A DNA stretch of 64,000 nucleotides from Kiritimatiellia bacterium. GTDB taxonomy: Bacteria > Verrucomicrobiota > Kiritimatiellia > RFP12 > UBA1067. The position numbers were made by a program, and so were the translations under genes. Location: positions 27,834 through 91,833 of the forward strand of contig JAFWKK010000081.1 in assembly GCA_017514235.1 (NCBI GenBank), read 5' to 3'. Below the pieces are notes generated by a model that was given only the letters and a program-made list of their open reading frames with translations, did no database searches and had not been told where the DNA came from. This document shows, one piece after another, positions 11,109 through 47,199 of the stretch (position 1 is its first letter; the number at the start of each line of letters is the position of its first letter).

Positions 11109-11200
11109 GGGTGGGTAATAGGAAAGTGCAATTGTATTTTCATGGAAGCGGGCTAGGTTGGGTTTATGCTATACTGCATGACGAAAGGAGAAACTGTGCC
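11109..11200 (+). repeat. Duplicated upstream block, copy 1 (with promoter)
   Basis: This block, from GGTGGGTA through AGGAAAGTGCAAT, TTTCATGGAAG and the extended -10 TGC-TATACT (11167-11175) to the SD and ATG, recurs at 21293-21389 with only scattered changes. Conservation over about 90 nt outside coding sequence suggests a shared operator or a copied promoter. The two downstream genes are unrelated. Confidence 0.85.
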
Positions 11201-12103
11201 ATGGAAAGGTTGTCTGGCGGAGCCTACGCGGCCATGATAACGCCGTTCACCAAGGATGACAAGGTGAACGAGGGCGCGATTGAACAGTTGATCGAATACG
11301 GGTTGGCTGGCGGACTCGCCGGCTTCTACCTTACGGGCAGCACGGGCGAAGGGCTGCTGATGAGCGTAACGGAGCGCAAGCAGGTGTACCGTCGCGTAGT
11401 CAAGGCTGCGAAAGGCCGCTGCAAGATCATTGCCCATGTGGGCGCGGTGCGCACCGAGGACTCCATCGCGCTGGCGCGATATGCCGCCGACATCGGATGC
11501 GACTGGATAAGTTCCGTCGCGCCTGTCTATTTCGGCCAGACGTTCGAGGCGCAGTACCGCCACTACAAGGATATTTCCGAGTCCACAGACCTGCCGTTCA
11601 TGGTCTATTGCTTCCGATCGTCGCTCGTGCCGGAACGCGATGCGCGACTCTTCGACCTGAAGAACGTGAAGGGCATGAAGTACACGGGGAGCGACTATTT
11701 TGCGGTGCAATGCCTCAAGCGCAAGTTGGACAAGGAAGCCGTCTTCTTCGCCGGACGCGACGAGCAATTTGCCTGCGCGATGGCGCTCGGCAATGTGTTC
11801 TCCGGCGCGATCGGCACGAGCCAGAACTTCATCCCCCGCCACTTCGCGAACATCTACGACTGCTGCATGCGTAATGACTTCGCGGCGGCGGCGAAATGGC
11901 AGGACGAGGCCAACCGCTTCGTCGAGCTGCTTATCTCGAACGAGAATTGGTCCACATGGAAGGCGATGATGAAGCATGTTGGGATTGACTGCGGTGCTGC
12001 GCGCAAACCCTATGCGCCGCTTTCCGCCGCAGAGGAGCGGAAGTGGATCAAGCGCTTCGCGGCGTTGAAGCTCGTAAAAGCTTCCAAACGAACGGCCTCA
12101 TGA
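11201..12103 (+). CDS. N-acetylneuraminate lyase-like aldolase (DapA/NanA family)
   Basis: A 300-residue TIM-barrel class I aldolase, probably cleaving sialic acid to N-acetylmannosamine and pyruvate in the cytoplasm. The family substrate loop GSTGEG is at about residues 47-52. Tyr136 (MVYCF) and Schiff-base Lys160 (GMKYTGSDY) fall where NanA has Tyr137 and Lys165. The KYT context and the BNR sialidase gene directly downstream favour NanA over dihydrodipicolinate synthase. A good SD (AAAGGAG) precedes the ATG. The gene has the duplicated promoter block. Activity on another 2-keto-3-deoxy acid remains possible. Confidence 0.82.
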   Translation: MERLSGGAYAAMITPFTKDDKVNEGAIEQLIEYGLAGGLAGFYLTGSTGEGLLMSVTERKQVYRRVVKAAKGRCKIIAHVGAVRTEDSIALARYAADIGCDWISSVAPVYFGQTFEAQYRHYKDISESTDLPFMVYCFRSSLVPERDARLFDLKNVKGMKYTGSDYFAVQCLKRKLDKEAVFFAGRDEQFACAMALGNVFSGAIGTSQNFIPRHFANIYDCCMRNDFAAAAKWQDEANRFVELLISNENWSTWKAMMKHVGIDCGAARKPYAPLSAAEERKWIKRFAALKLVKASKRTAS

Positions 12104-12139
12104 AAACGCTGAGCCAACGCTTAAAGGCATAAAAACACA

Positions 12140-13336
12140 ATGGAAATGAAAATAACAGGCATAATCGAAAAGACGGTCAAGAGTATCGCGGTCTTTGGCT
12201 TTGTCGTTGCGTTTGTGTTCTATGCCTTTGCGGCGCATGGGGCATGCGGCGAGATTATATGGACGCGGGCGCTCTGCAAGGAACCGGGGCATTATATCGG
12301 TTGGCCGTCGGTGACGCGGTGCGCGGATGGACGGCTCCTCGCGGTATTCTCCGGCGACCGCGATGGACATATCTGTCCGTGGGGGAAGGTACAGATGGTC
12401 GAAAGCCGTGACAATGGAGAGACATGGTCGGCTCCAAGAACGCTGCGGAACAGTCCACTTGACGACCGCGACGCCGGAATCCTCGAACTGAAGAACTGCG
12501 ACCTTCTGCTGACGTGGTTCACATCTCTCGCATTCACCACGCTGGGAGGCAACCCGTACGCGAGACACACCGAGAAGATTCAGGATGAGGACAGGATAAA
12601 GCACCTCGGACATTTCACAATGCGTTCAACCGATGGCGGCAAGACGTGGGAGAAGCCCGTGCCGACGTGCAGTTCTGCGCCGCACGGCGGAATCCAGCTG
12701 AAAGACGGACGCCTGATGATGATTGGCCGCGAATGGAGTTCACAGGCGGGCATGTCCGCCGCCGATCCGAGAAAAGGCAAGATGCAGGATCGCGTGGTGG
12801 CAGAAGTCTCGGAAGACGGCGGGCGCAGCTGGAATGTGACCAAAACCCTGACGCCGCCGACCGGACAGACTGCAGCGTCGCTCAGTCTTTGCGAACCGAC
12901 GCTGGCCGAACTGCCGGATGGAACGATCATTGCGCAGTTCCGCGCCGACAGGGCGGGGCAGACCGTTTACCAGTCGGAAAGCCGCGATGGCGGGGCGAAC
13001 TGGACGGTTCTGCATCCGACGCCGCTTTGCGGTCTACCGCCGCATCTTCTTGTGCTGCGAGACGGGCGGTTGCTTTCCACCTACACGCGGCGCAGGGCGT
13101 GGGATCCGGCGAAGAACGAGACGAGCGAACTCAAGGCCTGCATCAGCAAGGACGGTGGCGCAACATGGAACACTGCGGAAGAGATTGTCCTTGCCACCAG
13201 CTCCAGCGCCGATATGGGCTACTCCTCGACTGTGGAGCTTGACAACGGCAATCTGCTTACGGTCTATTACATGCACGAAAAGCCAAAAGAAGGCGCTTGC
13301 CTCATGGGCACGCTCTGGCGGCCGGTACCGCAATGA
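12140..13336 (+). CDS. Secreted sialidase-family protein with five Asp boxes
   Basis: A 398-residue beta-propeller. A membrane/signal segment (IAVFGFVVAFVFYAF, residues 17-31) precedes EIIWTRA. Five S-x-D-x-G-x-x-W Asp boxes are present: SRDNGETW, STDGGKTW, SEDGGRSW, SRDGGANW and SKDGGATW, at about residues 89, 163, 225, 281 and 337. This spacing is typical of six-bladed sialidases. Next to the lyase it suggests release and cleavage of sialic acid. The canonical GH33 FRIP motif is not obvious, so it could act on a different sugar acid. The start is uncertain by three residues. Confidence 0.8.
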   Translation: MEMKITGIIEKTVKSIAVFGFVVAFVFYAFAAHGACGEIIWTRALCKEPGHYIGWPSVTRCADGRLLAVFSGDRDGHICPWGKVQMVESRDNGETWSAPRTLRNSPLDDRDAGILELKNCDLLLTWFTSLAFTTLGGNPYARHTEKIQDEDRIKHLGHFTMRSTDGGKTWEKPVPTCSSAPHGGIQLKDGRLMMIGREWSSQAGMSAADPRKGKMQDRVVAEVSEDGGRSWNVTKTLTPPTGQTAASLSLCEPTLAELPDGTIIAQFRADRAGQTVYQSESRDGGANWTVLHPTPLCGLPPHLLVLRDGRLLSTYTRRRAWDPAKNETSELKACISKDGGATWNTAEEIVLATSSSADMGYSSTVELDNGNLLTVYYMHEKPKEGACLMGTLWRPVPQ

Positions 13337-15453
13337 TTTTTTTATACAAACAGGGAACAAGAAAAGGAAAGACAGTTAAGGCCCTCGCGATCTTTGGCCT
13401 TATCGCTGGGGCAATGATCGCTTCTGGGCGAGACCTTATTTGGACAGGTAGCGCTTCGTCGGTTACAGGTGTTCGCGGAACGTTTTCCCCGGACGGCCGG
13501 AAGATTGCTTTTCAGCGCATGGTCGGTGGCGACATCCATCTTGGTATCTTGAGTCTGGATGACGGGCGTGTCGAGTGGGTCGAGCGTTCCTCCGGTCAGG
13601 CGGTCTTTCCGTTCTGGGCAAAGGACGGACGGCTTGTCTATTCCTTTGGCACGGTAGATCCGGCGGCGCGTAAGGCGGGTCAATACAGGTCGGAGGGCTT
13701 CGGGGTGCGGATCCGCGAAGGTGAGTCGGTGCGCACGTTTCCGCACGGTCTCTGGTTTGAGGAGTCGCCGTCCATGCCCGACGACGGCCGTTGCGTCTGG
13801 TATGCGTCGACGAAGGGTATCAAACATTACGATACGTGCAAGCAGTATCCCGGCGAGGGCTTCCGCGCGAAGATCGTGAGACGCGACCTGTCGGACGGCA
13901 GTGTCACGACCGTCCATGCCATCTCCAATTCGCTGATGTGCGGTGTGCGGTCTCCGCAGGTCTCCCCTGACGGGACGCGCGTCGCCTGGTCGCAGCTTGA
14001 CGCTTTCCGGAAAAGCGAAATGCACGTGCGGGTTGCTGCGACAAACGACCTGCGGGTGTCGACGGTTGTCTCTCCTGCGGATATGACGGCGTATGGCCCG
14101 AAGTGGAGCTCGGACGGGCATTTCCTCTGCTTTACGGGCTTTCGTGCCGGCGATCCGGGTTGGAGTGTTTATCTTGCGCGGCTTTCCGACAATTCCGTTC
14201 GGCGCATCTGCACGGGCGAGAACCCCTCTTTTTCCTCGGACGGACGGCAGATTGTCTACGATGACGGCCGTTCGCTTCATCTCTGGGATGTCACCGCAAG
14301 ATGCGAGATCCCTTTGAAGTCGCAGGACGAAAGGCCGTTTCGCGTGCTGGCGCTTGTCGATTCGCGGGACTTCGACAGCGTCTACGACCTTTCAACGGTA
14401 TCGGGCAACTTGCAGGTCCTCGATCATGTGATGTCAACGTTCCCGACGGATGTCCTTTGGCGTGACAAGGGCGGCGGAGGCGTGCGCTATGACAGTCGCG
14501 AAGACGCCGTATCCGATGTTCGGTGCCTCCTTGATACCCGTCGCCTGCTGGATCAGGATGTCAACTCCTTTGTGAACATTGCGACGGGGGGAAGTGAAGT
14601 TTTCCGTGTCGTCGCCCGGAGCTGCGCCGAGCGAGGGGTCTCCTTCGGCATTCATACAACCTACGAGGAAAACCACCGTTGGCCTAATTCGGAATCGCCC
14701 TGGAACTTGCGTCATCCGCAGTTCGCCTGCCGTACGTTGGGCGGCAAGCCGCGGACGGACACCTGCTCGCTGTCGTATCCCGAAGTGTTTGAGCACAAGC
14801 TTCGGCTTGTCGACGAGCGGCTCGCGCTTGGACCGAAGACGATCTTCCTGGACTGTTGCGAGACGCGAATGGGCGCGTGGACGCCGGCGTGCGAATACGT
14901 GGAGCCGGTCATTGCCGCATGGCGGGCCAAATACGGGTGCGAACCGCCGACGGACTGGAAGGATCCCCGTTGGACGGCGTTAGTCGCCGAGAGCGTCTCC
15001 CGATATCTGCGTGCGTTTGGCGTACGATGTCATGCGGTCGGCGTTGAATTTTTCATCGGCATCTCGCCGGTGGACGACGAAGATGACTTCGTTTATCGCC
15101 AATGGGCGATAGATTGGAAGAGGTTGGCTGCCGAAGGTGTTTTTGACGGGGTTGTCGCAATGGGCGTCAAGGTCGAGGAGACCGATCCGTTCGGTTCTAC
15201 CCGGCGTATCCTGGCAAAGACACGGGAGTCCATCGGCTCAGCTGCACTGTATTTCCAGTGCAGTGCCTATGACTGCAATTTCGGCTATGCCATGTATGCG
15301 CGCCAGTTGAATATGCCCTTTGGCGAGGCGGCGAAGAAACTCGTTGATATGACGAAGGAAATCGGCGGAAAGGGCGTCATCCTGGAGTGCGTCGACTATG
15401 CGAACTACCCGGAAGACGTTCGTCAGGTCTTGAAAGCGGCTTTGATGCGATAA
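13333..15453 (+). CDS. Secreted TolB-like propeller plus GHL10-like glycosidase domain
   Basis: A 706-residue protein beginning in an ATGA overlap with the sialidase stop. After a signal segment (TVKALAIFGLIAG) the first half (about residues 40-330) is a TolB/PD40-type propeller with repeats such as FSPDGRKIAFQR, VSPDGTRVAWSQ and FSSDGRQIVYDD. The second half (about residues 340-706) looks like a TIM-barrel glycosidase of the GHL10/family-10-like group, with FGIHTTYEEN, KTIFLDCCE and VGVEFFIGISP. I cannot name the substrate. Its signal region is a copy of that of the sialidase gene before it. Confidence 0.65.
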   Translation: MIFLYKQGTRKGKTVKALAIFGLIAGAMIASGRDLIWTGSASSVTGVRGTFSPDGRKIAFQRMVGGDIHLGILSLDDGRVEWVERSSGQAVFPFWAKDGRLVYSFGTVDPAARKAGQYRSEGFGVRIREGESVRTFPHGLWFEESPSMPDDGRCVWYASTKGIKHYDTCKQYPGEGFRAKIVRRDLSDGSVTTVHAISNSLMCGVRSPQVSPDGTRVAWSQLDAFRKSEMHVRVAATNDLRVSTVVSPADMTAYGPKWSSDGHFLCFTGFRAGDPGWSVYLARLSDNSVRRICTGENPSFSSDGRQIVYDDGRSLHLWDVTARCEIPLKSQDERPFRVLALVDSRDFDSVYDLSTVSGNLQVLDHVMSTFPTDVLWRDKGGGGVRYDSREDAVSDVRCLLDTRRLLDQDVNSFVNIATGGSEVFRVVARSCAERGVSFGIHTTYEENHRWPNSESPWNLRHPQFACRTLGGKPRTDTCSLSYPEVFEHKLRLVDERLALGPKTIFLDCCETRMGAWTPACEYVEPVIAAWRAKYGCEPPTDWKDPRWTALVAESVSRYLRAFGVRCHAVGVEFFIGISPVDDEDDFVYRQWAIDWKRLAAEGVFDGVVAMGVKVEETDPFGSTRRILAKTRESIGSAALYFQCSAYDCNFGYAMYARQLNMPFGEAAKKLVDMTKEIGGKGVILECVDYANYPEDVRQVLKAALMR

Positions 15454-15477
15454 CCACACAAAAGAAACGGAGATATC

Positions 15478-17910
15478 ATGAGAACTATGATGATGCTGCT
15501 CGTTGCAACGAGTGCGACGATTGTCCAGGCAAAAACAGTTGCCCTTTGGACGATGGCGATTGATGGAGTCCCAAGCGCAGGCACGGGCAAGGCTCCTTGC
15601 TCCGTCAATTCGGCTTACGACCTGACGATTGGTACAAGCGGTGCGATTGCCAAGATGGATCAGGACGCGGGCTGGACGCTTCCGCCGAATCCGGATACGA
15701 CGACGCCGACGGTGCGTACGCTTGTCGGATCGCAGTGCCTGAACATTGCCGGTCTCTACAAAAACAACCCGTGCGCACGTTCGGCAAATGCCGATTTGAT
15801 TGCAGCACTGACACCGACGAACAGCTTTACTCTCGAAGGGTACTTTTGGTTCAACAAGGTCCAGAATGTCGGTAGCCGGCTGATGTTCATGGTGGGCGCA
15901 GGCGGAACGCAACTGGGCAGCTGGGCGGTAAACTGTTCCAGCAATACGACGAGCGGATGCTGGCGTTTCGTGATGAGCGAACAAACAGAGTCCGGGCGTC
16001 AGCAGTATGCGCAGATTCAGGATCTCACGCCTGACATACCCTATTCCGAGCTGACGAACGGCTATCACCACCTGGCCTTGACCTTTGACTATGCCTATCC
16101 CCGCGACAATACGAAGAGCGAATGGCGATTCTACTGGGACGGCGTCTGCCGCGGTCAGGTCATCGTGCCGCGCATTAGTGAGGCCGTGGCGATAACGGGC
16201 AACTTCATGATGTTCGGGTCTGGGACGGGCAAGACGGAGGGGACGAATCCGTTCGGACACGCGTATTATTGGCGGCTTTCGGACAAGGCGCTTGTCGGCC
16301 GCGAGCTCTTCTGCTATGGTGATGCGAAGAAGTCGCATACGGTCGCCTACTGGCCGATGAACTATGTAAGCGGTGTTGTTCCTTGTGCCATCTCGTCGGT
16401 CAACAACCTGACTCCGCGTGCCGGCGGCTTTGGCGCAACCGGCTTTTCTTCAACGGACATCGGCTGGTCGCTGCCGCCGAACTTCGCCTCGGATAGCACG
16501 TTCTTCTCGGGCTATACGCCGGGTACGCAGTACGTGAACATCAACCCGGGCATAGCCCCCGGCGGTTCCTATCACGCTGAGTTCGAGCCGAAGAACGACG
16601 TGTTGGCGAGCGATCTCAGCCTACGCAATGACTTTACGCTCGAATACTACTACAGAGCTACAAGCCTGCCCGCGGCGAGTCGTCGACAGGATGTCTTCTG
16701 CATGTCAACGGGCAGTATCGGCGGGTGGTCGTTCTCGATGGACACGCAGGACGGCGGCAGCACCTATCGGTTCTATGTGAACATGTATTGCACACCGGAT
16801 GCAAAGAGCTCCAATTACACGGTCGCCACCGGCGTCAGATCGGAAGAACTGCTCAATATCTGGAACCATTTTGCCCTTCGCTTCAAGTATGACAATGGCA
16901 ATGGCATGAGCGAGTGGACGGTACTCATCAACGGTTACCGCCGCGGCACCGTCGAATCGACGAAACTGACGGCGGACCCGACAACGGCGACGAGCGCTCA
17001 GTTCTACATTTCCGGTTCGTCGTCTTCGACGGCCAATGACATGCTTGGCAACATCGGCTGCATCCGGCTTTCGCGCAAGGCCCTCGCCATGCGGGAGCTC
17101 CTGCCGTTCGTCAAGGACGCGATGGCGTACGATGACACTCTTGTCTATACGAGTTTTGAAAACGCAAGTCACCGGTATGACCAGGTTTCCGAATACGAGG
17201 TCGTGACCAGCAAGCCGATTGGAGGGGTCTCCGACCTGGTGGTGAAGAACATACCTCGCGCACGGACCGTTCGGAAGGCCAAGGGCGATGCCGCAGTCGT
17301 AGAAGCGGATTCGAATCGCGCCGTCGTCGGCCGTACGGGCGGTGCGAACGGGTATCCGTTTTTCAGTTACGCGATAGACGGGAACGAACTCAACGTGTCT
17401 GATTTCACCGTCGAAACGCTGGTGAAGGCTCAGGCTCTGAACAATGGGCAATACATCATTGCCAAGGCGAAGGACGCGTCGACGACGGCTCTTGACTGGG
17501 GTGTGTTCATTGCGGCGAACGGGACGACGGCGCAGCTTATCGTGGACGGGGAAACGGTCTCGCAGCAGGTTTTTGACTCGGCCGTGGACATCCTCAGCGA
17601 TTTTCTCTATCACCATCTTGCCGTGTCGTACGATGCGGCGACGAAGGAACTGGCGTTGTGGATTGATTATGTGAGGATCGCCGGTTGTACGGTCGTATGC
17701 GACTTGTCAGCCGCGGGTGTCACGGGCCGCACGGCACTTTATTTTGGCAGCGAAGTGCCCAATCCGTCCGATCAGGCCAAGAGGGCGACATCTCCAGCGG
17801 TGAACGGAAGCTTTGATGCCGTTCGCGTGACGAGGCGAGTGCTGACCGCAGACGAGATGCTGTTCATGGACGACAATTATCTTGACGGCTTGAAGCTGTT
17901 TATCCGCTGA
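15478..17910 (+). CDS. Secreted LamG-repeat protein with C-terminal hydrophobic-Arg tail
   Basis: An 810-residue exported protein (signal peptide about residues 1-18, SD ACGGAG). Three concanavalin/LamG-type jellyrolls can be placed by their recurring strands: FTLEGYFWF (about residue 118), FTLEYYYRA (about 383) and FTVETLVKA (about 644), each ending with an RLSRKAL-like or VRVTRRVL-like segment. LamG domains bind carbohydrate. No catalytic domain is visible, so it is probably a surface adhesin or glycan-binding protein. It ends LDGLKLFIR, the same kind of tail found on the other large surface proteins here. Confidence 0.8.
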   Translation: MRTMMMLLVATSATIVQAKTVALWTMAIDGVPSAGTGKAPCSVNSAYDLTIGTSGAIAKMDQDAGWTLPPNPDTTTPTVRTLVGSQCLNIAGLYKNNPCARSANADLIAALTPTNSFTLEGYFWFNKVQNVGSRLMFMVGAGGTQLGSWAVNCSSNTTSGCWRFVMSEQTESGRQQYAQIQDLTPDIPYSELTNGYHHLALTFDYAYPRDNTKSEWRFYWDGVCRGQVIVPRISEAVAITGNFMMFGSGTGKTEGTNPFGHAYYWRLSDKALVGRELFCYGDAKKSHTVAYWPMNYVSGVVPCAISSVNNLTPRAGGFGATGFSSTDIGWSLPPNFASDSTFFSGYTPGTQYVNINPGIAPGGSYHAEFEPKNDVLASDLSLRNDFTLEYYYRATSLPAASRRQDVFCMSTGSIGGWSFSMDTQDGGSTYRFYVNMYCTPDAKSSNYTVATGVRSEELLNIWNHFALRFKYDNGNGMSEWTVLINGYRRGTVESTKLTADPTTATSAQFYISGSSSSTANDMLGNIGCIRLSRKALAMRELLPFVKDAMAYDDTLVYTSFENASHRYDQVSEYEVVTSKPIGGVSDLVVKNIPRARTVRKAKGDAAVVEADSNRAVVGRTGGANGYPFFSYAIDGNELNVSDFTVETLVKAQALNNGQYIIAKAKDASTTALDWGVFIAANGTTAQLIVDGETVSQQVFDSAVDILSDFLYHHLAVSYDAATKELALWIDYVRIAGCTVVCDLSAAGVTGRTALYFGSEVPNPSDQAKRATSPAVNGSFDAVRVTRRVLTADEMLFMDDNYLDGLKLFIR

Positions 17911-17929
17911 TGGTTTGTCGGGATGAAGA

Positions 17930-18982
17930 ATGAACAGACGGGAGTTTATCGGCGGAGCTGCGGCCTTAGCCGTCACCGGGTGCGTGGGTGACAAGATGGC
18001 TTTGCGGCGTCCGGCTGCGGACGGCCTCATCAAGTGCCTGTACATGCAACTCGGACAGCACATGTGGCGCGGCCCCATGGACACCTTCGGCGGCAAGGTC
18101 CGCGGCGACAAGAACGCTCCGTATGACGAGGGTGCGCGCTGGGTGGCGGAACATTGGGATCGGCTTCAGTTCGACAACGGATCGTGGAGACGTATCGTCG
18201 AATATGCGGCGAAACGCGGGTTCAACGCCATTCAGCTTGATCTTGCGGAAGGCGTGAAGTATCCGAGCCATCCCGAACTCGCCGTTTCGGATTCCTGGTC
18301 CGCCGAACGTCTGCGCGACGAAGTGCGGCGTTTGGCCGACATGGGGATCGAGCTTATTCCATCCCTCAACTTCTCCGCGGCGCACGACATCTGGCTCGGC
18401 GATTATTCGCGGATGATCTCGACGCGGAAATACTACCAGGTCTGCGCCGATCTTATTGGCGACGTCTGCGAAATCTGCGCCACGCGGCGCGTGATGAGCA
18501 TCGGGTACGACGAGGAATCGCCGCGGTTGCAGCGCAATCAGGCGTTTTGCGTGTGCCGACAGGGAGACCTTTGGTGGCATGACCTCTACTGGTTCGTCAA
18601 CGAAGTCGAGAAGCGTGGCGTACGTGCGCAGATGGCGGCTGATTATGCCTGGGGACACAAGGAGGAGTTCCTGAAGAGGGCTCCCCGTTCAGTCCTCCAG
18701 ACGAACTGGTACTACGGGGCGGAGTTCGACCCGAAGAAGATGGTTCATCCGGAATACCTGCTTACCTATGACGAACTCGAGAAAGCGGGTTTCGATCAGA
18801 TGCCGGGTTGTGGGAACGACTCCAGCACGACGAACATCGGCGACACGGTGCGCTATTGCAAGAGGGTCATATCGCCTGAACGATTGAAGGGCTTTCAGGT
18901 GTCGATCTGGCGGAGCACGTTGCCAGAGCATGAGCAAAGACACTTTGATGCCATAGACCAGCTGGCGGAGACGGGCATCTGA
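17930..18982 (+). CDS. Tat-signal lipoprotein with GH20-like barrel (paralog 1)
   Basis: A 350-residue protein starting MNRREFIGGAAALAVTGC (twin arginine plus lipobox). The body is a TIM-barrel-like protein with YPSHPELAVSDSWS, NFSAAHDIWL, YYQVCADLIGDVCEI and IGYDEE (Asp194-Glu195), and RQGDLWWHD. The adjacent acidic pair after a His/Ile-Gly strand resembles the Asp-Glu pair of GH20 hexosaminidases, but I cannot confirm the family. Paralogs are at 53777 and 60888. A degraded surface-protein tail follows immediately after its stop. Confidence 0.65.
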   Translation: MNRREFIGGAAALAVTGCVGDKMALRRPAADGLIKCLYMQLGQHMWRGPMDTFGGKVRGDKNAPYDEGARWVAEHWDRLQFDNGSWRRIVEYAAKRGFNAIQLDLAEGVKYPSHPELAVSDSWSAERLRDEVRRLADMGIELIPSLNFSAAHDIWLGDYSRMISTRKYYQVCADLIGDVCEICATRRVMSIGYDEESPRLQRNQAFCVCRQGDLWWHDLYWFVNEVEKRGVRAQMAADYAWGHKEEFLKRAPRSVLQTNWYYGAEFDPKKMVHPEYLLTYDELEKAGFDQMPGCGNDSSTTNIGDTVRYCKRVISPERLKGFQVSIWRSTLPEHEQRHFDAIDQLAETGI

Positions 18983-18994
18983 GGCGGTGGCGCA

Positions 18995-19240: not shown

Positions 19241-19306
19241 CCCTTGCCGCCGTGAGGGTGGGCGATGTTGCGCCGATTCTGGCAAAAACTTGTGGTGTGA
19301 ATGGAG
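19241..19306 (+). repeat. Direct repeat flanking the ATPase gene, copy A
   Basis: This 66-nt element starts CCCTTGCCGCC and ends GGTGTGAATGGAG. It matches 20937-20975 plus 21036-21065 on the other side of the ATPase gene, where a 60-nt segment splits it. Confidence 0.8.
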
Positions 19307-20936: not shown

Positions 20937-21065
20937 CCCTTGCCGCCGAGAGGGTGGGCGAAGTTGCGCCGATTCGGCGAAGGTTCAACTTTTGCCAGAA
21001 CCAATAAATCACCGAACGGTTGCATCTGTTCGCTAATTCTGGCAAAGCTTGTGGTGTGAATGGAG
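20937..21065 (+). repeat. Direct repeat flanking the ATPase gene, copy B (split)
   Basis: The first part (20937-20975) and second part (21036-21065) match copy A at 19241-19306. Between them are 60 nt containing TTTTGCCAGAA, the inverse of the TTCTGGCAAA that begins the second part, so the region can fold into a hairpin. This resembles a small palindromic element rather than a gene. Confidence 0.7.
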
Positions 21066-21292: not shown

Positions 21293-21389
21293 GGTGGGTA
21301 CAGGAAAGTGCAATCGTAATTTCATGGAAGAGGGCGAAGGTCGGTTTATGCTATACTGCGCTGCGAAAGGAAGAAAACCGTTTGCCATG
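21293..21389 (+). repeat. Duplicated upstream block, copy 2 (with promoter)
   Basis: Second copy of the block at 11109-11200, including the extended -10 TGC-TATACT at 21349-21357 and a purine-rich SD (AAAGGAAG). It ends at an ATG that here opens an 11-codon leader instead of the main gene. A second -10-like TATACT at 21287-21292 lies just upstream. Confidence 0.85.
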
Positions 21390-21422
21390 GCGACGAAATG
21401 GAAAGTGGCGGCTGGAAAATGA
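21387..21422 (+). CDS. Possible 11-codon leader peptide
   Basis: ATG at the conserved position of the promoter block encodes MATKWKVAAGK and ends in a TGA that overlaps the ATG of the aldo/keto reductase gene (ATGA). The SD of the block serves this ATG and the main gene has none of its own, so translation of the reductase may depend on reinitiation. It may simply be the old start codon left over from promoter duplication. Confidence 0.4.
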   Translation: MATKWKVAAGK

Positions 21423-25406: not shown

Positions 25407-25516
25407 TCCAGTGGTGAACGCATGCGTCGTTTCTGCGTGAGCTTGCCAGCTGAAGATTATGCCAATCCTTTGCTGATTTTTAATGTTCTTTTTTGCTGAA
25501 AAATCACATCTATTTA

Positions 25517-28350: not shown

Positions 28351-28365
28351 CGTCCGTCATCGGCC

Positions 28366-29794: not shown

Positions 29795-29824
29795 GAGACA
29801 TGGCATATGTCATATGATTTAAGC

Positions 29825-34872: not shown

Positions 34873-34920
34873 ATTGCCGAATTTTATTATCGTTTTTTGC
34901 CCAAAAGCAATCCTTGGATA

Positions 34921-34980
34921 TGATATAATGCACATCGGTGGGGTGGACCCATCGAAGAACAACACAAGGAATTGTAAGTC
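34921..34980 (+). promoter_or_regulatory. Promoter and leader of the autotransporter-like gene
   Basis: TGA-TATAAT at 34921-34929, then a stem (CGGTGGG / CCCATCG with one G-T pair) and the SD AAGGAA before the ATG at 34981. Confidence 0.6.
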
Positions 34981-37823: not shown

Positions 37824-37838
37824 GCGGAGGTTTGCGAC

Positions 37839-40730: not shown

Positions 40731-40736
40731 TTCAGG

Positions 40737-40823
40737 CTGAAGACAAACCAGTATCTGAATACGGCGACTGCTGTCGACCTTTCCCAAGAGACGGCGGTGA
40801 CGTTTGAGTGCTGGTGCCGCTGA
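40737..40823 (+). pseudogene. LamG gene fragment (+ strand)
   Basis: The frame reads NQYLNTATAVDLSQETAV then TFECWCR and a stop. The intact LamG protein at 25576 has DQFLQTAAALDLSGEQAV then TFECWFR. It is clearly a relic of such a gene, starting 7 nt after the GH2 stop. Confidence 0.75.
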
Positions 40824-40857
40824 CGGGACGGCCGAGTGGCGTTTACGGCGTTCTCTC

Positions 40858-40944
40858 CTAAACGTCGGGAAGCGTCAGGTCGTAACCGTTCCCCGACAAA
40901 TCCTTCCACACTGTAGGCGAGTCCGAATCTTCTCCGACACCAGC
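40858..40944 (-). pseudogene. LamG gene fragment (- strand)
   Basis: Read on the minus strand, this gives AGVGEDSDSPTVWKDLSGNG then YDLTLPDV and a stop, matching the DVSGNGHDL start of LamG repeats. In an intact domain it would precede the fragment at 40737, so part of the relic has been inverted. Confidence 0.7.
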
Positions 40945-41035
40945 GTTGTCGATTGGCACAATCCGACCTTTGGAGGGTGTCGGGCTTACGCAGATATATG
41001 GTATAATGTGCGGCGTTGAAAGTGGTGGACGATCA
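40945..41035 (+). promoter_or_regulatory. Promoter region of the GH43-like gene
   Basis: TGG-TATAAT at 40999-41007 lies 28 nt before the ATG at 41036. There is no convincing -35 box or SD (only GTGG-type purines). The rest of this gap holds LamG relics. Confidence 0.6.
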
Positions 41036-42091
41036 ATGAAGAAGCAATGTCTGTGTTTGTCACTTGCCGTTGCATGGACAAGTGCGGTTCTGGCGGGTGT
41101 GTCGCTTGACGCGCCGGGGCATGTCTATGTGGAGGGCGCGGCGCTTACGATGAGCAACGCGCCGGTCGAGCTCAAGAAGCTGGGCACCATCGACGAGTTC
41201 ATCGTCGAGGCCAACCCCGTTGTATTCAAGGGAAAGCCGTATCTTTGCGAATACATCCGCTATTTCAGTCCGGCGAAACGCTATCCCGGCAACGATCTGG
41301 GCACCTCCTACTTCCGATTCCGCGACCTGTCGGATCTGAAGCTGACGACGCCGCCATGCGGCATGGGTCTGCACATGGGCAATGCGTTTGTGGCGGGCGA
41401 CCGCGTAATCATTACCTGTGTGGAGGGGTGGGGGAAGAGCCGGTTCTATCAGCTGGAGTCCACAGACCTTGTGCATTGGTCGAAGCCGCGTGTTATTCTC
41501 TCCGGCGAGGGCTGGGCTGGCTACAACACGTCCGTCTGCAAGGCGGGCGACAGATACGTGATGGTGTTCGAGCTGGGAAAACCGCGCGATCTGGTCGGCA
41601 AGCCGTTCACGATGTTCTTTGCGGAGTCCCGCGACCTGAGGGAGTGGAAGCAGATTCCAGACGCCGTCTACGGCAGGGAGTTCTACACGGGCGCGCCAAT
41701 GCTGAGGCATTTCGGCGAGTGGTTCTACTTCTTCTACCTCGAGTCCCAGAAAGATGGCTATCGTCAGCGTGTCGCGCGCTCGCGAGACCTGAAGAAGTGG
41801 CAGCTCAGCCCTGCGACGGTCCTGTCGTTTGACGCAAACGACAAGAAGATTCATCCGGAAGCCGTTCTCTCCGCGGCACAGCGTGAAAAGGTGGCGGCGG
41901 CGGAGAACCGCAACGCCTCCGACCTCGACATGTGCACCTACAGCGGCAGGCTGATTTGCTCCTATAGCTGGGGGAACCAGAAGGGCATTGAGTTTCTTGC
42001 GCTTGCGGAGGCGGACGTGACGGAACGGGGGTTCTGCGAAAGCTTCTTTGACGGCGTGGATCCTGACGGGGCTTCGCTCCCTCCGCGATAG
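41036..42091 (+). CDS. Secreted GH43/GH117-like five-blade propeller with borrowed N-terminus
   Basis: A 351-residue exported protein. After a signal peptide come about 25 residues (GVSLDAPGHVYVEGAALTM) that match the mature start of the unrelated GH39-like enzyme at 29825. From about residue 48 it becomes a propeller glycosidase: GTIDEFIVEANPVVFKGKPY, MGNAFVAGDRVIITC, SRDLREWKQIPDA, FYTGAPMLRHFGEWFYFFY. Blade motifs such as STDLVHW and SRDLKKW are typical of GH43/GH117-like folds. Catalytic residues cannot be assigned. It appears to be a 5'-end chimera. Confidence 0.7.
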   Translation: MKKQCLCLSLAVAWTSAVLAGVSLDAPGHVYVEGAALTMSNAPVELKKLGTIDEFIVEANPVVFKGKPYLCEYIRYFSPAKRYPGNDLGTSYFRFRDLSDLKLTTPPCGMGLHMGNAFVAGDRVIITCVEGWGKSRFYQLESTDLVHWSKPRVILSGEGWAGYNTSVCKAGDRYVMVFELGKPRDLVGKPFTMFFAESRDLREWKQIPDAVYGREFYTGAPMLRHFGEWFYFFYLESQKDGYRQRVARSRDLKKWQLSPATVLSFDANDKKIHPEAVLSAAQREKVAAAENRNASDLDMCTYSGRLICSYSWGNQKGIEFLALAEADVTERGFCESFFDGVDPDGASLPPR

Positions 42092-42101
42092 GCAGGTTCA
42101 C

Positions 42102-42130
42102 TTGGAGTCAAGCGGGGGTTTTGGTATAAT
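42102..42130 (+). promoter_or_regulatory. Promoter giving a probable leaderless transcript
   Basis: TTGGAG (42102-42107), 17 bp, TATAAT (42125-42130), with TGG in front of the -10. The ATG follows after 7 nt, so transcription should start at or next to the start codon. Confidence 0.7.
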
Positions 42131-42137
42131 TCGTGCC

Positions 42138-43046
42138 ATGAAAAAAGTTATTGCAGTGATGTTTGCGGTCGCCGTTTCGACGGCGTTGGCGGATGCAGGA
42201 GACTGGAAGGTGCCGCGCTGGTGGGCGTTCCTTTCGGCGCCTGACTCCGTGAAGAAGGTCGTCGACGGGCGGTGCAGCGGACACTCGCAGGGAATGTGCG
42301 TGACGTCCAACGCCTTCTACTTCTCGTTCCACAACCAGATCGTCAAGACGGACTGGAAGGGACGGTTCCTGAAGCGCGCGGAGGTTGCCAGACACGGTGG
42401 CGACATCTGCCACTGGAATGGGCGCGTATACACGGGAGTTTGGGAGGAGCCTGCGAAGAAGGACGGCAAATGGTGCGCGGCAATCAAGATGTACGACGCG
42501 GAGACGCTGGCGTTGCTGAAGGAGAAACGGTTGCCGGAATGGACCAAGGCCTGTGACGGCATCACATGCCTTGACGGCGTAATCATCCTTGCGATGGGCA
42601 TGGAGGACTGGAACTCTCCCGTCGGGAGCCGCAACAATTACGGGCGGTTCGACGCCGAAACGCTGGAGCCGATCGGCAAGCCTTTCGTGGTGGACCATGG
42701 CGAGCAGGCGAATTGCGGGGCGCAGAACCTCACTACTGACGGCACGTACATCTACGCCTGCTACTACACGGACAACGAGGCGGCTCGGACGCCTAACTTC
42801 ATTGTGTTCGACAAGGACTTCAAGGTCGTGGGCAAGCATGTGTTCGGCTGGACGCACGGAGTCGATGTCGTACCGGGCGGTAAGGATGGCGCGGTGCGCT
42901 TCGCTTGGGCAACCACGCTTAACAACAACTGGGACTACGACTCGCCTATCGTCCCGCAGATGCTCGTCCAGTTCGGCGAACTCAAGGACGGAAAGATCAC
43001 CGACATCACGAAATACATCGGATTCAAGAAGCCGATGCAGCGGTGA
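42138..43046 (+). CDS. Secreted protein of an unnamed propeller-like family (copy 1)
   Basis: A 302-residue exported protein (MKKVIAVMFAVAVSTALA signal). It has repeating short beta-strand units: GMCVTSNAFYFSFHNQIVKT, GGDICHWNGRVYTG, GITCLDGVIILAMG, TDGTYIYACYYTD, GVDVVPGGKDGAVRFAW. The pattern suggests a six-bladed propeller. I cannot assign a known family or active site. Copies 2 and 3 lie at 58930 and 59887 and share the HxQGMC, HxQIVKTDW and VDVVPGGKDGA motifs. The context suggests a role in glycan binding or lyase activity. Confidence 0.6.
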   Translation: MKKVIAVMFAVAVSTALADAGDWKVPRWWAFLSAPDSVKKVVDGRCSGHSQGMCVTSNAFYFSFHNQIVKTDWKGRFLKRAEVARHGGDICHWNGRVYTGVWEEPAKKDGKWCAAIKMYDAETLALLKEKRLPEWTKACDGITCLDGVIILAMGMEDWNSPVGSRNNYGRFDAETLEPIGKPFVVDHGEQANCGAQNLTTDGTYIYACYYTDNEAARTPNFIVFDKDFKVVGKHVFGWTHGVDVVPGGKDGAVRFAWATTLNNNWDYDSPIVPQMLVQFGELKDGKITDITKYIGFKKPMQR

Positions 43047-43069
43047 GCATTCGGGAATGGGAAGGTGAA

Positions 43070-44323
43070 ATGCATAAATGCGTTTCGATTACGCTCCTGT
43101 GCGGCGTGGCGTTTTCCGTTTGGGTCGCCCAAGGGCGGGTGGAACTCCTGGCTCCGGAGGACAAGGCCGTGTTGCCGTCCGTTCCGGCGGCGCAACGCGT
43201 GGTTATGGCTAAACCTACGCAGGGCGAGCGGCGTTCCGCCGCCGCATGCGAGCAGGGACCATGGGGCGAATCGGCGTCCATCACGGTGTCGTGGCGGATG
43301 ACCGAGGGCGAGTCCGGCCCGTGGCGCATACGCATCGGCACGGATGCGGAGCTTCGGGACGGCAAGGACTGGTGGATTCTCAAGAAGGTGCTGATACCCG
43401 ACTACAGTGGCGTGTACAAGTACACTCTGGCGAACGCCAACCTCGTGCCGGGCCGCCGCTACTGGTGGCGCATCTGGTGCAACGTGAAGTGCAGCGAATG
43501 GGAGTGTGGCTCTGCGATCGGCCCGAACGGATGCGCGTGCGGCAAGACGGGGCCTGCGCCCGCCTCCGAAATCCGCACGTTCGTCATCGAGGACGTTCCG
43601 CCCCGTTGGATCGCGCTGGAGGGACGCACAAAGAACATGCGCGACCTTGGAGGCTGGCGCACGACCGACGGCAAGCGTGTGCGGTACGGCATGGTGTTTC
43701 GCGGAGAGGCGATGAACGACAATAGCGTAAGCGGCTATGCGCCTGGCCGCAACCGCCTTGCTGTCGAAGATGTCGCCTTCCTCACCAATGAACTCGGCAT
43801 CAAGACCGAACTAGACCTCCGGACGGCGCGCGAAGTGTCGGGCATGAAAGGCTCGCCGATGGGGCCGTCTGTGGCCTATGTACACCGTTCGTCACAGGCC
43901 TACAAGTCGATGTTCACCCCGGAAGGGATGAAGGCCATGGGGGAGAACTTTCGTCTTTTCTGCGACAGGAAGAACTATCCGGTGTTTTTCCATTGCATTG
44001 GAGGGGCGGACCGCACTGGCTCCCTCGCTTATGTGCTGAACGGTGCGCTCGGCGTGGCGAAGGAGGATCTTGAGCGCGACTGGGAATCGACGTTCTACCC
44101 GGACATTCCGAACGTCGTGGACAACCTGACCGGCCGGCCGTTCACCGACAGCACGTACTGGCGCAGCAGCAGCCACTTCGATGACGGGTTTGCGAAATAC
44201 GCCAAAGAAGGCGACACCCTGCGCGACAGGATATGCGCCTACCTGGAGGCATGTGGCGTAACGGAGTCGGACATCGAACAGGTGCGGGCCATCATGCTCG
44301 AATGCCCCGCGAATGCGAAGTAG
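43070..44323 (+). CDS. Secreted tyrosine-phosphatase-family protein
   Basis: A 417-residue exported protein (signal CVSITLLCGVAFSVWVAQG). An Ig-like N-terminal half (about residues 20-180, including GPWRIRIGTD and YWWRIWCN) precedes a bacterial dual-specificity/Tyr-phosphatase domain. It has NMRDLGGWRT and the P-loop FHCIGGADRTGSLA with Cys309 and Arg315, i.e. the C-x5-R signature. Exported members of this family can dephosphorylate peptides, inositol phosphates or sugars. SD GGAAGG before the chosen ATG; an upstream ATG at 43043 would lack a signal at the very start. Confidence 0.85.
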   Translation: MHKCVSITLLCGVAFSVWVAQGRVELLAPEDKAVLPSVPAAQRVVMAKPTQGERRSAAACEQGPWGESASITVSWRMTEGESGPWRIRIGTDAELRDGKDWWILKKVLIPDYSGVYKYTLANANLVPGRRYWWRIWCNVKCSEWECGSAIGPNGCACGKTGPAPASEIRTFVIEDVPPRWIALEGRTKNMRDLGGWRTTDGKRVRYGMVFRGEAMNDNSVSGYAPGRNRLAVEDVAFLTNELGIKTELDLRTAREVSGMKGSPMGPSVAYVHRSSQAYKSMFTPEGMKAMGENFRLFCDRKNYPVFFHCIGGADRTGSLAYVLNGALGVAKEDLERDWESTFYPDIPNVVDNLTGRPFTDSTYWRSSSHFDDGFAKYAKEGDTLRDRICAYLEACGVTESDIEQVRAIMLECPANAK

Positions 44324-44369
44324 CGCGGTCTTCTCCTTTCGCTGGTTTAACAATCTGTATTCCCACATT

Positions 44370-44378
44370 TGATATAAT
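44370..44378 (+). promoter_or_regulatory. Extended -10 promoter, leaderless GH2 gene
   Basis: TGA-TATAAT ends 7 nt before the ATG at 44386, the same spacing as at 42138. No clear -35 box. Confidence 0.65.
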
Positions 44379-44385
44379 TCACGGC

Positions 44386-47199
44386 ATGAAAAAGACAGTT
44401 GCTGGCATGTTTGCGGTTGCCGCTTCGGCGGCCGTCGCGTGGGCGGCACTTCAGGGGCGTGGCGAAGAGCTGCATGGCGTTGACACGTGGGCGGGGATAC
44501 GTCCGTTGCCGGCCGTTGTAAATCCAGTAGGGCGCGAGGCATCGCCAAATCTAATCTCGCTACGCGGTGAATGGGAGTTCGTGACGCAGCCGAAACCGTT
44601 CTGCCGCCGCTACCGTCACACGAAGGTGCCGTTCGCGAAGGTGGACGAGAACACGCCGGCAAATCGGCGCAGCGGCATGGATACGCCTTGGTCGGAAGCG
44701 CGGCGAATCAACGTTCCGGGCGCATGGGAGGCTCAGGGCGTCGGCGAGCCGGGGATGTCGATTCCTTGGGATCCGCTCTGGGATTCCAGCCCAAAGAGGA
44801 TCAATCACATCTACATGGGCGAGGGCTGGTACCGCAAGGATGTGGTTGTGCCGTCCGGCTGGAGCGGCAGAAAGATGTGGCTGAAGGTCGGCGGCGTGAA
44901 ATCGCAGGGCTGGTTCTGGGTGAACAAGCATCCTGTCGCATGGGTTGACACGTACTGCGGCACGTACAAGTACGACATCACGCCGTTCGTAAGGCCGGGC
45001 GAGACGAATCGCATCCTTGTTTGCGTCAACAATGCACTGCCGTCGCGCAAGGGGCTTATGAGCAACGTCCATCGCTGGGGCGGCATCTACCGAGATGTCG
45101 AGATCGAGGCGACGCCAGAGACGCGCATCGACGACGCATGGGTACGCGGGCTGTTTGACGAGAAGGCGGCCGAAGCGCATGTGACGGTCACCGGTTTGGC
45201 CGTTCAGGCGCGGCAGATTCGCGTGACGGTGGAAGGCGAGGCGGCGGTCTGCCGGGCCAGCGTGGAAGGCGAAACCGTCGTGCGCCTGCCGCTCCGGGAT
45301 TTTCGTCCGTGGTCGCCGGAAAGTCCGAATCTATACTGGGCGAAGATAGAGCTTCTAGATGAGGAAGGGGATTTGATGCAGGCGTGGCGCGAGCGATTTG
45401 GCGTCCGCAAGCTGGAAGTGCGTGGCGACACGTTCTACCTGAACAACCATCCGTATTTCCTGCGCGGGTTCGGCGACGACAGCGTATATCCGATCGCCGG
45501 CCTTCCGCCGGCAGACCGAGAGACTCATCTTGCGCACCTGAAGAAAGCGCATGCGGCGGGTTTCAACTTTGTACGCCTGCACACGCACTGCGAAGTGCCG
45601 GAGTACTTCGAGGCGGCGGACGAGGCGGGCATTCTCGTCCAGGCTGAGTTGCCGTACTACACCGATGTGCCGACGGAGGCGTTCGCGTTCGATCCGCTCA
45701 GGGACCTGCGCGAGCTTCAGGCGCACTACCGGCGCTATCCGTCTTTCGCCGTGTATTGCGGCGGCAACGAGGGACGGCTTGGGCCGTATGTCGAGAAGAA
45801 GATGTACGAATTCGTGAAGGGAACGGACCCTGATCGGCTTGTGAACCATCAGGACGGCGACCGGATGCTGTGGCAGGAGTGGGACGGCGACGAAGGCTGC
45901 AACGACCCGGGCAACTCCGACTACGACATCGGTCCACGCGACATCTGGCCGCGCGGCACGTTCAACACGGGCCGCCCGTTCGTGTGCCACGAGTACTTGA
46001 ACCTCTGCGTCAAGCAGGATACGCGAATCGCGCCTCTCTATACGGGCGCGTGGGCCGTGCCAGACTCGCGAGCCGACCGCTCCGCCTGGCTTGCCGCGCG
46101 CGGGCTAGACCTTGCGTGGGGCGATGCGCTTCAGGACGCCCAGCACGTGCTGCAAGGCGTTTACCAGAAGCGTGGCATCGAATGGGCGCGCAAGGATCCG
46201 TATTGCGACGGGTACTGTTTCTGGACGGCGGTGGACGTAGTGGTCGCCAATGGCCCGATCCATTCGGCGCAGGGGCTCTTCGACCCGTTCTGGCAGGTTA
46301 AGAAGGGCGGCCTGACGCCGGAACGGTTCGCCCTCTTCAACGGTCCCAGCGTCGTGCTTGCCGACTTCGCGCCGGAATGTTCCGTCGCAGAGGTTGGCGA
46401 GACGCGCAAGGTCGCCTTCCTCTTCGCCAACTACGACGGCGCGTCGAAACGGAATGTTGCCGTCCGCTGGACGCTTTCGACGAACGGGCAAGTGCTGGTG
46501 AATGGCGAAGAACCTGTGACGGAGATCGCCGAAGGCAATGCGCGTCCTGTCGCCACAACGATGCTGACGATGCCGCCCGTCGCCAGGGCCGTGAAGGCTG
46601 TGTTGAGGGCCGAGGTTGACGGCACCGCGAACGAATGGGACTTTTGGGTGTTTCCAAAGCGTGCAAAGCGCAACGGCTCGGACATCGCAGCCGATGCCGA
46701 GCTGCTTCCGATGCTTGCGAAACTTTATGACGACGTGTCTGATGCGGTGTCGCCCGAAGGAGCCAAGGCGCGGGTCGTGATCGCGCCGTTCGGATCGAAG
46801 ACGGCTGCGGAGGCGCTGGCGCGAGGGCAGAACGTACTGACGGTCTCGGGATGGGACGGCACGCCGAACGTTTCGCTTGGCTGGTGGTCGATGGGCAATC
46901 AGGTCGGGACGGCACTCGCGAAGGGCAATGCGGTTCTTGCCGGACTGCCGCATGAAGGTTCGCTTACGCCGCTCTTGTTCCGCGTCGTCAAGGATGGGGC
47001 GCATCCTCTTGGAGAGGGCGGGCTGAAGCTCGTCGAGCCGATGATCGTCGGCGAAGGGCGGAAGGACTGCTATCTCTATCTCGGCGAGGTGGAATGCGGG
47101 GAGGGCCGGCAGCTGGCGGCGTTCGGGCTTGATATCCTTTCCGGCATGCCCGAAGGCACGGCGATTCTCGACGGCGCGATTGACGAATTGCGACGTTGA
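44386..47199 (+). CDS. Exported GH2-family glycosidase (2)
   Basis: A 937-residue paralog of the enzyme at 37839. The signal peptide (MKKTVAGMFAVAASAAVAW) resembles, also in DNA, that of the propeller gene at 42138. Domain order: sugar-binding jellyroll (SLRGEWEFV, VPGAWEAQG, GEGWYRKDVVVP, QGWFWVNKHP), Ig-like domain, TIM barrel (FYLNNHPYFLRGFG, FNFVRLHTHC), C-terminal beta domains. Predicted acid/base Glu462 (YCGGNEG) and candidate nucleophile Glu536 (CHEYLN). Ten or so conserved blocks match the first GH2 gene, so duplication and divergence in place is likely. Confidence 0.86.
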   Translation: MKKTVAGMFAVAASAAVAWAALQGRGEELHGVDTWAGIRPLPAVVNPVGREASPNLISLRGEWEFVTQPKPFCRRYRHTKVPFAKVDENTPANRRSGMDTPWSEARRINVPGAWEAQGVGEPGMSIPWDPLWDSSPKRINHIYMGEGWYRKDVVVPSGWSGRKMWLKVGGVKSQGWFWVNKHPVAWVDTYCGTYKYDITPFVRPGETNRILVCVNNALPSRKGLMSNVHRWGGIYRDVEIEATPETRIDDAWVRGLFDEKAAEAHVTVTGLAVQARQIRVTVEGEAAVCRASVEGETVVRLPLRDFRPWSPESPNLYWAKIELLDEEGDLMQAWRERFGVRKLEVRGDTFYLNNHPYFLRGFGDDSVYPIAGLPPADRETHLAHLKKAHAAGFNFVRLHTHCEVPEYFEAADEAGILVQAELPYYTDVPTEAFAFDPLRDLRELQAHYRRYPSFAVYCGGNEGRLGPYVEKKMYEFVKGTDPDRLVNHQDGDRMLWQEWDGDEGCNDPGNSDYDIGPRDIWPRGTFNTGRPFVCHEYLNLCVKQDTRIAPLYTGAWAVPDSRADRSAWLAARGLDLAWGDALQDAQHVLQGVYQKRGIEWARKDPYCDGYCFWTAVDVVVANGPIHSAQGLFDPFWQVKKGGLTPERFALFNGPSVVLADFAPECSVAEVGETRKVAFLFANYDGASKRNVAVRWTLSTNGQVLVNGEEPVTEIAEGNARPVATTMLTMPPVARAVKAVLRAEVDGTANEWDFWVFPKRAKRNGSDIAADAELLPMLAKLYDDVSDAVSPEGAKARVVIAPFGSKTAAEALARGQNVLTVSGWDGTPNVSLGWWSMGNQVGTALAKGNAVLAGLPHEGSLTPLLFRVVKDGAHPLGEGGLKLVEPMIVGEGRKDCYLYLGEVECGEGRQLAAFGLDILSGMPEGTAILDGAIDELRR

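Follow-up and report, generated by a model that had tools for sequence, protein, structure and literature searches.

Carbohydrate enzymes that appear to have landed behind other genes' promoters and secretion signals in a rearranged island of a Kiritimatiellia bacterium

The origin of secretion in acquired bacterial enzymes is usually guessed, and signal peptides diverge too fast to be traced. Constant leaders in front of changing proteins are familiar from the vsa genes of Mycoplasma and the vlp/vls genes of Borrelia, phase-variable surface genes in which one conserved 5' leader is combined with exchangeable bodies. Two further processes come close: horizontally acquired genes can capture promoters by illegitimate recombination, via deletion or tandem duplication (PMC11111574), and exon shuffling of signal peptides has been described in eukaryotes (PMC5308243, PMC1626468). 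Here we analyse a 64,000 nt stretch of a Kiritimatiellia bacterium, referred to as the window, corresponding to positions 27834-91833 of contig C79 in the source genome (G000; 3.96 Mb in 82 contigs). It was compared with a sister genome (G004) and with further genomes, which also carry G-numbers, whilst sampled stretches carry L-numbers; every genome compared is a metagenome-assembled genome (MAG). The window contains an island in which carbohydrate enzymes appear to have landed, on several occasions, behind the promoter and secretion signal of another gene. We put a probability of about 0.74 on the reading that such leaders were captured through illegitimate recombination in a rearranging island, the products being filtered by selection for in-frame export.

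The first-pass annotation had proposed that five pairs of unrelated genes share a 5' block at the DNA level. Four of these are real repeats, with identities of 71-82%, but the fifth, 12140/13333, is missing from the matches listed by a blastn comparison of the window with itself (E up to 0.5), which was run together with a repeat finder. The blocks concerned are:

25470-25649, forward strand: upstream region, 5' untranslated region (UTR) and signal peptide of a LamG protein (open reading frame, ORF, 25576-28350)
34874-35055, forward strand: upstream region, 5' UTR and signal peptide of the large ORF 34981-37614; the match to the LamG leader stops near the end of the signal peptide
29825-29967, forward strand: signal peptide and N-terminus of the GH39-like gene 29825-31792, the intact copy
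41036-41149, forward strand: putatively captured GH39-type leader, comprising a signal peptide and part of the mature N-terminus
42120-42191, forward strand: promoter and signal peptide of the propeller gene 42138-43046, found by the window's match to itself
44368-44439, forward strand: propeller-type promoter and signal peptide before the second GH2 gene (ORF 44386-47199), matching the propeller leader of the sister genome
11110-11204, forward strand: copy A of a promoter/5' UTR block, before a DHDPS-family gene (ATG at 11201)
21293-21390, forward strand: copy B of this block, before the aldo/keto reductase gene 21398
12146-13336, forward strand: sialidase-like gene (Pfam BNR_2, 9e-27) with a signal-peptide-like N-terminus weakly like the 13333 leader
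13333-13453, forward strand: leader of a TolB-like gene (Pfam PD40, 6e-13), its DNA unrelated to that of the sister orthologue

In the self-comparison, 25470-25649 matches 34874-35055 with 71% identity over 188 aligned nt (E = 1e-17), 11110-11204 matches 21293-21390 with 82% over 99 nt (2e-15), 29890-29967 matches 41091-41169 with 81% over 79 nt (4e-12) and 42120-42191 matches 44368-44439 with 75% over 72 nt (2e-7); the best leader pair returned by the repeat finder inside the window has 85% identity over 65 nt. An aimed comparison of 12140 with 13333 found 76% over 41 nt within the signal peptide, the protein match extending slightly beyond it. The paired bodies are unrelated to the extent that blastp detects no similarity at E 0.05 and that the Pfam families differ where they can be named, but three of them (29825, 34981 and 42138) have zero Pfam matches, and 'GH39-like', 'autotransporter' and 'propeller' are respectively the labels of the first-pass annotation.

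A first test of 5' regions against reversed sequence gave 12 pairs of at least 35 bits against 0, but was weakened because five of the 12, as we read them, represented the 3' ends of preceding genes, and another what we take to be pilin-like N-termini; hence an in-register, codon-permuted null was used instead. This covered 173 signal-peptide-like genes from 753 kb of G000, 172 of them assigned by a mechanical ORF rule and 42138 added by hand; throughout, signal peptides were assigned by this rule or by eye. The region compared was extended to +153, as a first run had truncated the 29825/41036 similarity. Codons were permuted within short zones and upstream bases locally in each of 20 replicates; a pair was excluded if its bodies were homologous by blastp (E 0.05 or better) or if its match was out of register by more than 12 nt. 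The maximum per replicate ranged from 31.1 to 45.4 bits. All 20 were exceeded by 25576/34981 (88.3 bits), 29825/41036 (69.7 bits) and 42138/44386 (54.0 bits), whilst 12146/13333 (32.6 bits) fell within the null range, and the non-coding pair 11110/21293 stood outside the test. At 40 bits or above there were seven real pairs, against a null mean of 0.1. Generic signal-peptide composition, which could have explained the sharing away, is thus contradicted for three of the four coding pairs, though not for 12140/13333; a promoter-start motif widespread in the genus makes up part of the 42138/44386 similarity. Outside the window, the neighbouring genes L012 7902/9818 (55.4 bits) and L119 10390 (on G000 contig C28) with the LamG leader (49.7 bits) also exceeded the null maximum, and two pairs at 41.1 bits, L120 4136/L126 15319 and L119 10390 with the 34981 leader, fell just short of it. 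The process is therefore not unique to the window: leader joining looks to happen elsewhere in the sampled 753 kb too, yet seems rare.

Comparison with the sister genome identified two genes in which the body has been conserved behind unrelated leaders, involving the following features:

13454-18991, forward strand: tract comprising the TolB-like body, a LamG protein and the 17930 gene, 97.4% identical to contig C5 of the sister genome
43070-43125, forward strand: gene X signal peptide, with no relation to the one found in the sister orthologue
43126-44323, forward strand: body of gene X, 94.4% identical to G004:C78:4458-5655, where it lies ahead of an aldo/keto reductase operon

For the TolB-like gene 13333, similarity to the sister genome is nil up to 13453 and abruptly 96-98% from 13454, the body as a whole being 97.8% identical; the N-terminus is KKKLAIALGCVLIAHLLPAA in G004 and ends in KGKTVKALAIFGLIAGAMIASGRDLIWTGSASS in G000, both ahead of a common VTGVRGTFSPDGRK. 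Gene X, which is tyrosine-phosphatase-like (Pfam Y_phosphatase3, 4e-26), begins with MHKCVSITLLCGVAFSVWVAQG in G000 and MKCPVWFLPFCILTLAAGSAHG in G004, with RVELLAPED common to both behind. At 13454 and at 43126 the loss of identity is abrupt and lies near the end of the signal peptide, as read by eye. As a control, 49 signal-peptide-like ORFs with a sister homologue of at least 74% identity were considered, a mechanical set including a few miscalled frames. Where the bodies are at least 88% identical, 31 of 33 ORFs retain the first 66 nt, scoring higher than every one of 30 shuffles; 13333 and 43070 are the sole exceptions. Amongst the 16 with bodies at 74-88%, signal-peptide DNA is clearly retained in eight (L118 3555, L126 5360, L012 2952, L134 16451, L121 8029, L008 13547, L131 17179 and 25576).

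These results bear on ordinary divergence, by which signal peptides would simply evolve fast and the apparent sharing would reflect generic signal-peptide and promoter composition. Such an explanation accommodates the null-range score of 12146/13333, the recurrence in the genus of a short TATAAT-to-ATG motif and the signal-peptide similarity at or near noise of several genes with body identities of 74-83%. It sits poorly with the three pairs above every permuted replicate, with the retention seen at high body identity and with the resumption of DNA homology with the leader of another gene; we regard it as unlikely.

Such a resumption is seen at the second GH2 gene, alongside which two other genes need to be listed:

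37839-40730, forward strand: first GH2 gene, homologous to 44233-47199; the signal peptide is unlike that of the sister orthologue, and the body 80.9% identical
33784-34872, forward strand: GH5 gene (Pfam Cellulase, 1e-17), the G014 homologue of which is in one frame with GH2

The 44386 leader is 93.9% identical over 66 nt to the propeller leader of the sister genome, near the species baseline, compared with only 75% to the propeller leader of its own window, and homology of the body with the sister GH2 begins at 44418. In G004 the GH2 start codon overlaps the propeller stop codon (ATGA) and GH2 has a signal peptide of its own; in G000, X sits between the propeller gene and GH2. An older propeller gene may therefore have left its 5' end in place when the body behind was replaced by GH2. 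Upstream of the sister propeller gene, L071 (G004:C49) encodes on the reverse strand, at 4057-4833, a protein with an NHFHVVV motif, presumably transposase-like and of the Y1/REP-associated kind.

A search of the genus found the GH2 body in 19 places in 13 of 62 genomes (E 1e-60 or better), and seven places in seven genomes, at 76% identity or above and with its own included, display six kinds of N-terminus. These are the propeller-type leader of G000, mutually different signal peptides in G004, G031 and G061, an open frame shared with an MFS transporter in both G060 (L192, G060:C35; identified by Pfam) and G005 (L193, G005:C71), and an open frame shared with a GH5 domain in G014 (L201, G014:C115; likewise by Pfam). 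It is possible that GH2 uses an internal start in the fused frames. The genes of G000, G004 and G031 share -AW- late in the signal peptide, hence part of the GH2 signal peptide may be homologous.

The other leader with an identified source lies before a GH43-like gene, behind the remnant of a LamG gene:

40739-40826, forward strand: LamG relic, directly behind the stop codon of the first GH2 gene (40730)
41150-42091, forward strand: GH43-like body (Pfam GH43, 0.006, below the cut-off)

This body occurs in two of the 62 genus genomes, its own included. The other, G069 (64% identity), has MHNRREFIKMAGAGTLAAATGCAQRCVC before an internal MKSAPVKLRKLGTFD, a Tat-type leader (Pfam TAT_signal, 6e-4, its score below the cut-off), and DNA homology between the two genes begins at the ATG at 41150. 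A homologue in Lentisphaeria bacterium isolate Horse_feces191 (JAKSPA010000019.1, L136; 55% identity), the only hit of a pattern scan across named genomes, which detects close relatives only, starts MDTRIRRLGTFD and is leaderless; a 33% relative in G055, from the same order, has no obvious leader. The ATG at 41150 may thus be the old start codon, with both leaders added ahead of it. No donor of the Tat-type leader was found amongst the candidates scored in G069, G000 and G004 (40 of 49, 62 and 64, respectively), the strong matches covering the stretch ahead of the leader, taken as the preceding gene.

The G000 leader corresponds to the 5' end of the GH39-like gene. The sister genome has the order GH2-LamG-28366-GH39, as against GH2-LamG relic-GH39 leader in G000, so that the relic (67% identical over 27 aa as protein and 77.5% over 80 nt as DNA) stands where G004 has the whole LamG-28366-GH39 block. 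Of the relics of the same families said by the first-pass annotation to lie between these genes, this one is confirmed. Decay of the old block seems to have left a LamG fragment and the 5' end of GH39. An intact second copy lies at 25468-31792, and from about 27650 on that tract is approximately 98% identical to G004:C83. Both G000 and G004 carry the LamG/34981 leader pair, hence this joining predates their split; related leaders are also carried by the LamG genes of G004 and G014.

The block at 11109/21293 is a real DNA repeat as well, but precedes cytosolic-type enzymes and hence is not a secretion block, so that the notion of an exchange amongst surface proteins throughout fails for one of the five pairs. 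It is absent from the aligned sister homologues of DHDPS (C5) and the aldo/keto reductase, and 926 kb of sequence sampled from that genome yielded no copy of it. The aldo/keto reductase gene 21398 lies directly behind X in G004 and apart from it in G000.

Leader joining is therefore supported by 13333, 43070, 44386, 41036 and 21398, because each differs from its relatives. The same body has an unrelated 5' end in G004 for 13333 and 43070, and in G069 and L136 for 41036, and the new 5' end is traced to the propeller leader for 44386 and to the GH39-like gene for 41036; alternative 5' ends and two leader origins are, to this extent, evident at the level of sequence. As regards the swapping of export leaders originally suggested, it is the joining of leaders to other bodies that finds support, through the relatives, and not a dedicated swapping process.

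The setting in which this occurred is a rearranged one. The flanks are collinear with the sister genome (89.8% identity at 346-4946, 92.0% at 47220-58870 and 91.0% beyond the window's left edge), whilst the island segments are reordered in G004 over contigs C83, C78, C49 and C5. C83, which also carries the left flank, has GH2 (37835-40744), LamG, the 28366 gene and GH39 (25468-31708) in series; C78 has 34864-37614, 1.4 kb more, X (43126-44323) and then 21355-25351; the propeller gene directly adjoins GH2 (44418-47229) on C49; and on C5 the DHDPS homologue comes after 13454-18991. In comparison with L078 (G004:C5) the gene order of 11218-18991 seems circularly permuted, DHDPS lying before TolB-LamG-17930 here and behind it in G004. 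The ends of C78 and C49 overlap by 126 nt, those of C49 and C55 (the right flank) do not overlap, and all four contigs likely represent one island. Identity to the sister genome is approximately 97-98% for 13454-18991 and from about 27650 to 31700, 90-94% for X and 21355-25351 and 73-82% for 34981, both GH2 genes and the propeller gene, with the 5' part of LamG uneven (46-86% per 100 nt). This mosaic would be best explained by exchange between species.

Jumps amongst identities of about 98%, 92% and 73-82%, in two MAGs of which the sister has C5, C49, C78 and C83 each ending inside the island, might be expected had contigs of co-occurring strains been wrongly joined to give chimeric 5' ends. 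Such an artefact is improbable, as reading frames and plausible signal peptides are kept at the junctions in both species, the leader copies are too diverged for k-mer joins and GH2 has its six kinds of 5' end in seven genomes.

The mechanism that we favour, leader capture by illegitimate recombination, envisages the island as a hot spot where secreted carbohydrate enzymes are rearranged, in which bodies would move, be exchanged with related species and decay. An illegitimate junction within the 5' region of another gene would provide a body with that gene's promoter and, were the joint in frame, with its signal peptide; leaders would remain, or be duplicated with a block, as the bodies behind them change. 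The molecular step may be deletion with microhomology-assisted joining, and the junctions at 13454, 41150 and 44418 display only short similarity, in comparison with relatives rather than the true parents. A joint would survive if it left the body in frame and downstream of a promoter or signal peptide that works, such that selection for expression and export could account for the position of the remaining junctions, at start codons and at the ends of signal peptides. The direction of change is one that we infer.

A number of points weigh against this account. Certain leader replacement at high body identity is limited to two genes, and donors of the 43070 and 37839 leaders were not found in the sampled sequence, nor is the sialidase gene, the presumed donor for 13333, significant at the DNA level. 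Seven of the 16 ORFs with bodies at 74-88% have signal-peptide DNA at noise (37839, L002 2989, L117 4297 and L135 13113, along with 60138, L012 4202 and 5899, which are miscalled or partly aligned frames), with plain divergence a possible cause in this range, and that of 44386 is barely over the shuffles (15.5 against a maximum of 14.0). The MAGs are fragmented throughout, the junctions being those of the assemblies, and the sister island lies on at least four contigs with the link to C55 unspanned. Export by these leaders is a prediction from sequence. Finally, breakpoints are also found upstream of signal peptides or within genes (25468, 34864, 42112 and about 27650), hence a preference for signal peptides is unproven. 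It is doubtful, if conceivable, that the signal-peptide region is a preferred joining point in the genus and that leaders act as landing sites for enzyme bodies travelling as modules from species to species; if this were so, landing behind a resident leader would turn an incoming enzyme, even a cytosolic one, into a secreted one in a single step.

A dedicated cassette system, whether site-specific or templated, that moves 5' leaders amongst surface genes could account for the presence in a single island of several leader pairs that match in position and stop close to the end of the signal peptide, and for the further pairs in sampled G000, of which two exceed the null maximum and one approaches it. 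Many further copies before different families, which the first-pass annotation named as support for cassette shuffling, are not borne out: at the sensitivity of the search each block tested has one partner, in the same window. Three blocks, compared with the whole of G000 with all candidates scored, found a single partner each, other matches being at most 28 nt long with E 0.002 or worse; for one of the three, the 11110 block, this means two copies plus one 28 nt match (E 0.2). A fourth block (14 of 44 candidates scored) found its partner only. These copy counts are lower bounds, since the searches missed the weaker LamG-leader relative L119 10390, caught only by local comparison. Across the 62 genomes, own included and with part of the candidates scored in many, 44350-44455 matched in 12 genomes; the 20 places listed were headed by itself, the sister propeller leader (94%, 66 nt) and the window's own propeller, and also included a G008 signal peptide (53 nt), a G079 match (64 nt, 75%) and 15 matches of 23-37 nt, mostly the TATAAT-to-ATG motif where inspected. 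Window copies are 18-29% diverged (6-29% for all leader copies), and leaders mostly form local pairs. The window has no inverted repeats of at least 40 nt at seed 12 and no Rfam elements at E up to 1. With the cytosolic-type gene 21398 also affected, and the junctions as expected from deletion or rearrangement with in-frame selection, a cassette system has little probability.

Remains of group II introns near two leaders might also be cited in favour of such a system. One is a 3' end (Rfam Intron_gpII, 44.7 bits) on the reverse strand of L121 (G000:C9) at 5030-5118, just upstream of a secreted-type ORF, and the other a 57 nt relative of it on the reverse strand of L078 at 7055-7110, beside the TolB leader junction of G004; a domain-V-like pattern was also noted at L087 8414, approximately 700 nt behind an X homologue in G027:C44. 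With two remains near leaders and none in the window, the group II intron was rejected as agent and kept as a lead.

Plain paralogy, in which duplication of entire genes was followed by divergence of their bodies past recognition, would suit the old LamG/34981 leader pair of both species, but is very improbable given that the paired bodies lack blastp similarity and differ in Pfam family where one is found, and that homologues of the GH43 body carry other N-termini.

Several further features of these sequences were observed. TATAAT boxes were seen by eye before 41036, 42138 and 44386, whilst a sigma-70 consensus scan of 40900-44500 found zero sites at threshold (1.0 expected in shuffles). In sampled G000, 15 of 81 TATAAT-ATG cases within 60 nt have the hexamer 7-8 nt before the ATG of an ORF of at least 100 aa, compared with 1 of 25 at the same spacing for the control hexamer TAATAT, and the motif with its start codon recurs in other species (window examples are the 42122 and 44376 regions); this suggests that the genus may use leaderless or very short-leader mRNAs. 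Large secreted ORFs often have a tail such as PGAVIIVR, GMVISIR, IGMTIMIR or GVCILVR at the stop codon, a pattern of G, alternating I/V/L and R, found in the window at 28321-28350, 37585-37614 and 17881-17910 and also in L008, L011, L012, L120, L121, L123, L126, L128, L131, L134 and L135. A loose form fits 17 of 135 signal-peptide-like ORFs of at least 300 aa, including L001 2043, which resembles a membrane protein; this short C-terminal tail is a possible sorting signal. The ORF 5899-7947 is a mosaic of a symporter-like fragment, similar to the sodium:solute symporter gene 23915 (62% over 34 aa), a GntR domain and a GH28/beta-helix domain, and short repeats of 88-91% identity at 19241-19306 and 20937-21065 flank an AAA_14/DUF4143 ATPase ORF.

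Steps in the acquisition of secretion are preserved in close relatives: one body is found with two unrelated signal peptides at body identities of 94-98%, and the GH43-like body is seen leaderless, with a Sec-type leader in G000 and with a Tat-type leader in a relative. This provides an example from natural sequences of how an enzyme can gain or change an export signal, and allows comparative genomics to test how secretion arose in bacteria that degrade carbohydrates. A literature search, conducted largely outside subscription papers, found amongst the papers listed no report of natural bacterial signal-peptide swapping of this kind. As in the vsa and vlp/vls systems, the leader is constant and the body changes; unlike in those, inverted repeats of 40 nt or more and near-identical copies were not seen, nor was a recombinase amongst the 21 distinct ORFs of the window compared with Pfam; leader copies are 6-29% apart, and the differences lie between species rather than between phases. 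The likeness to eukaryotic exon shuffling (PMC5308243, PMC1626468) is that unrelated mature domains receive an export module close to the cleavage site, the difference being that the junctions here lie in bacterial coding DNA, without known introns as joining sites. A known parallel is promoter capture (PMC11111574), in which deletion or duplication fuses a coding region to a nearby promoter without long homology, as may have happened here; it was seen under laboratory selection there and is seen between natural species here. What is added in the present case is the export signal: the piece captured here often contains a signal peptide, so that location would change besides expression.

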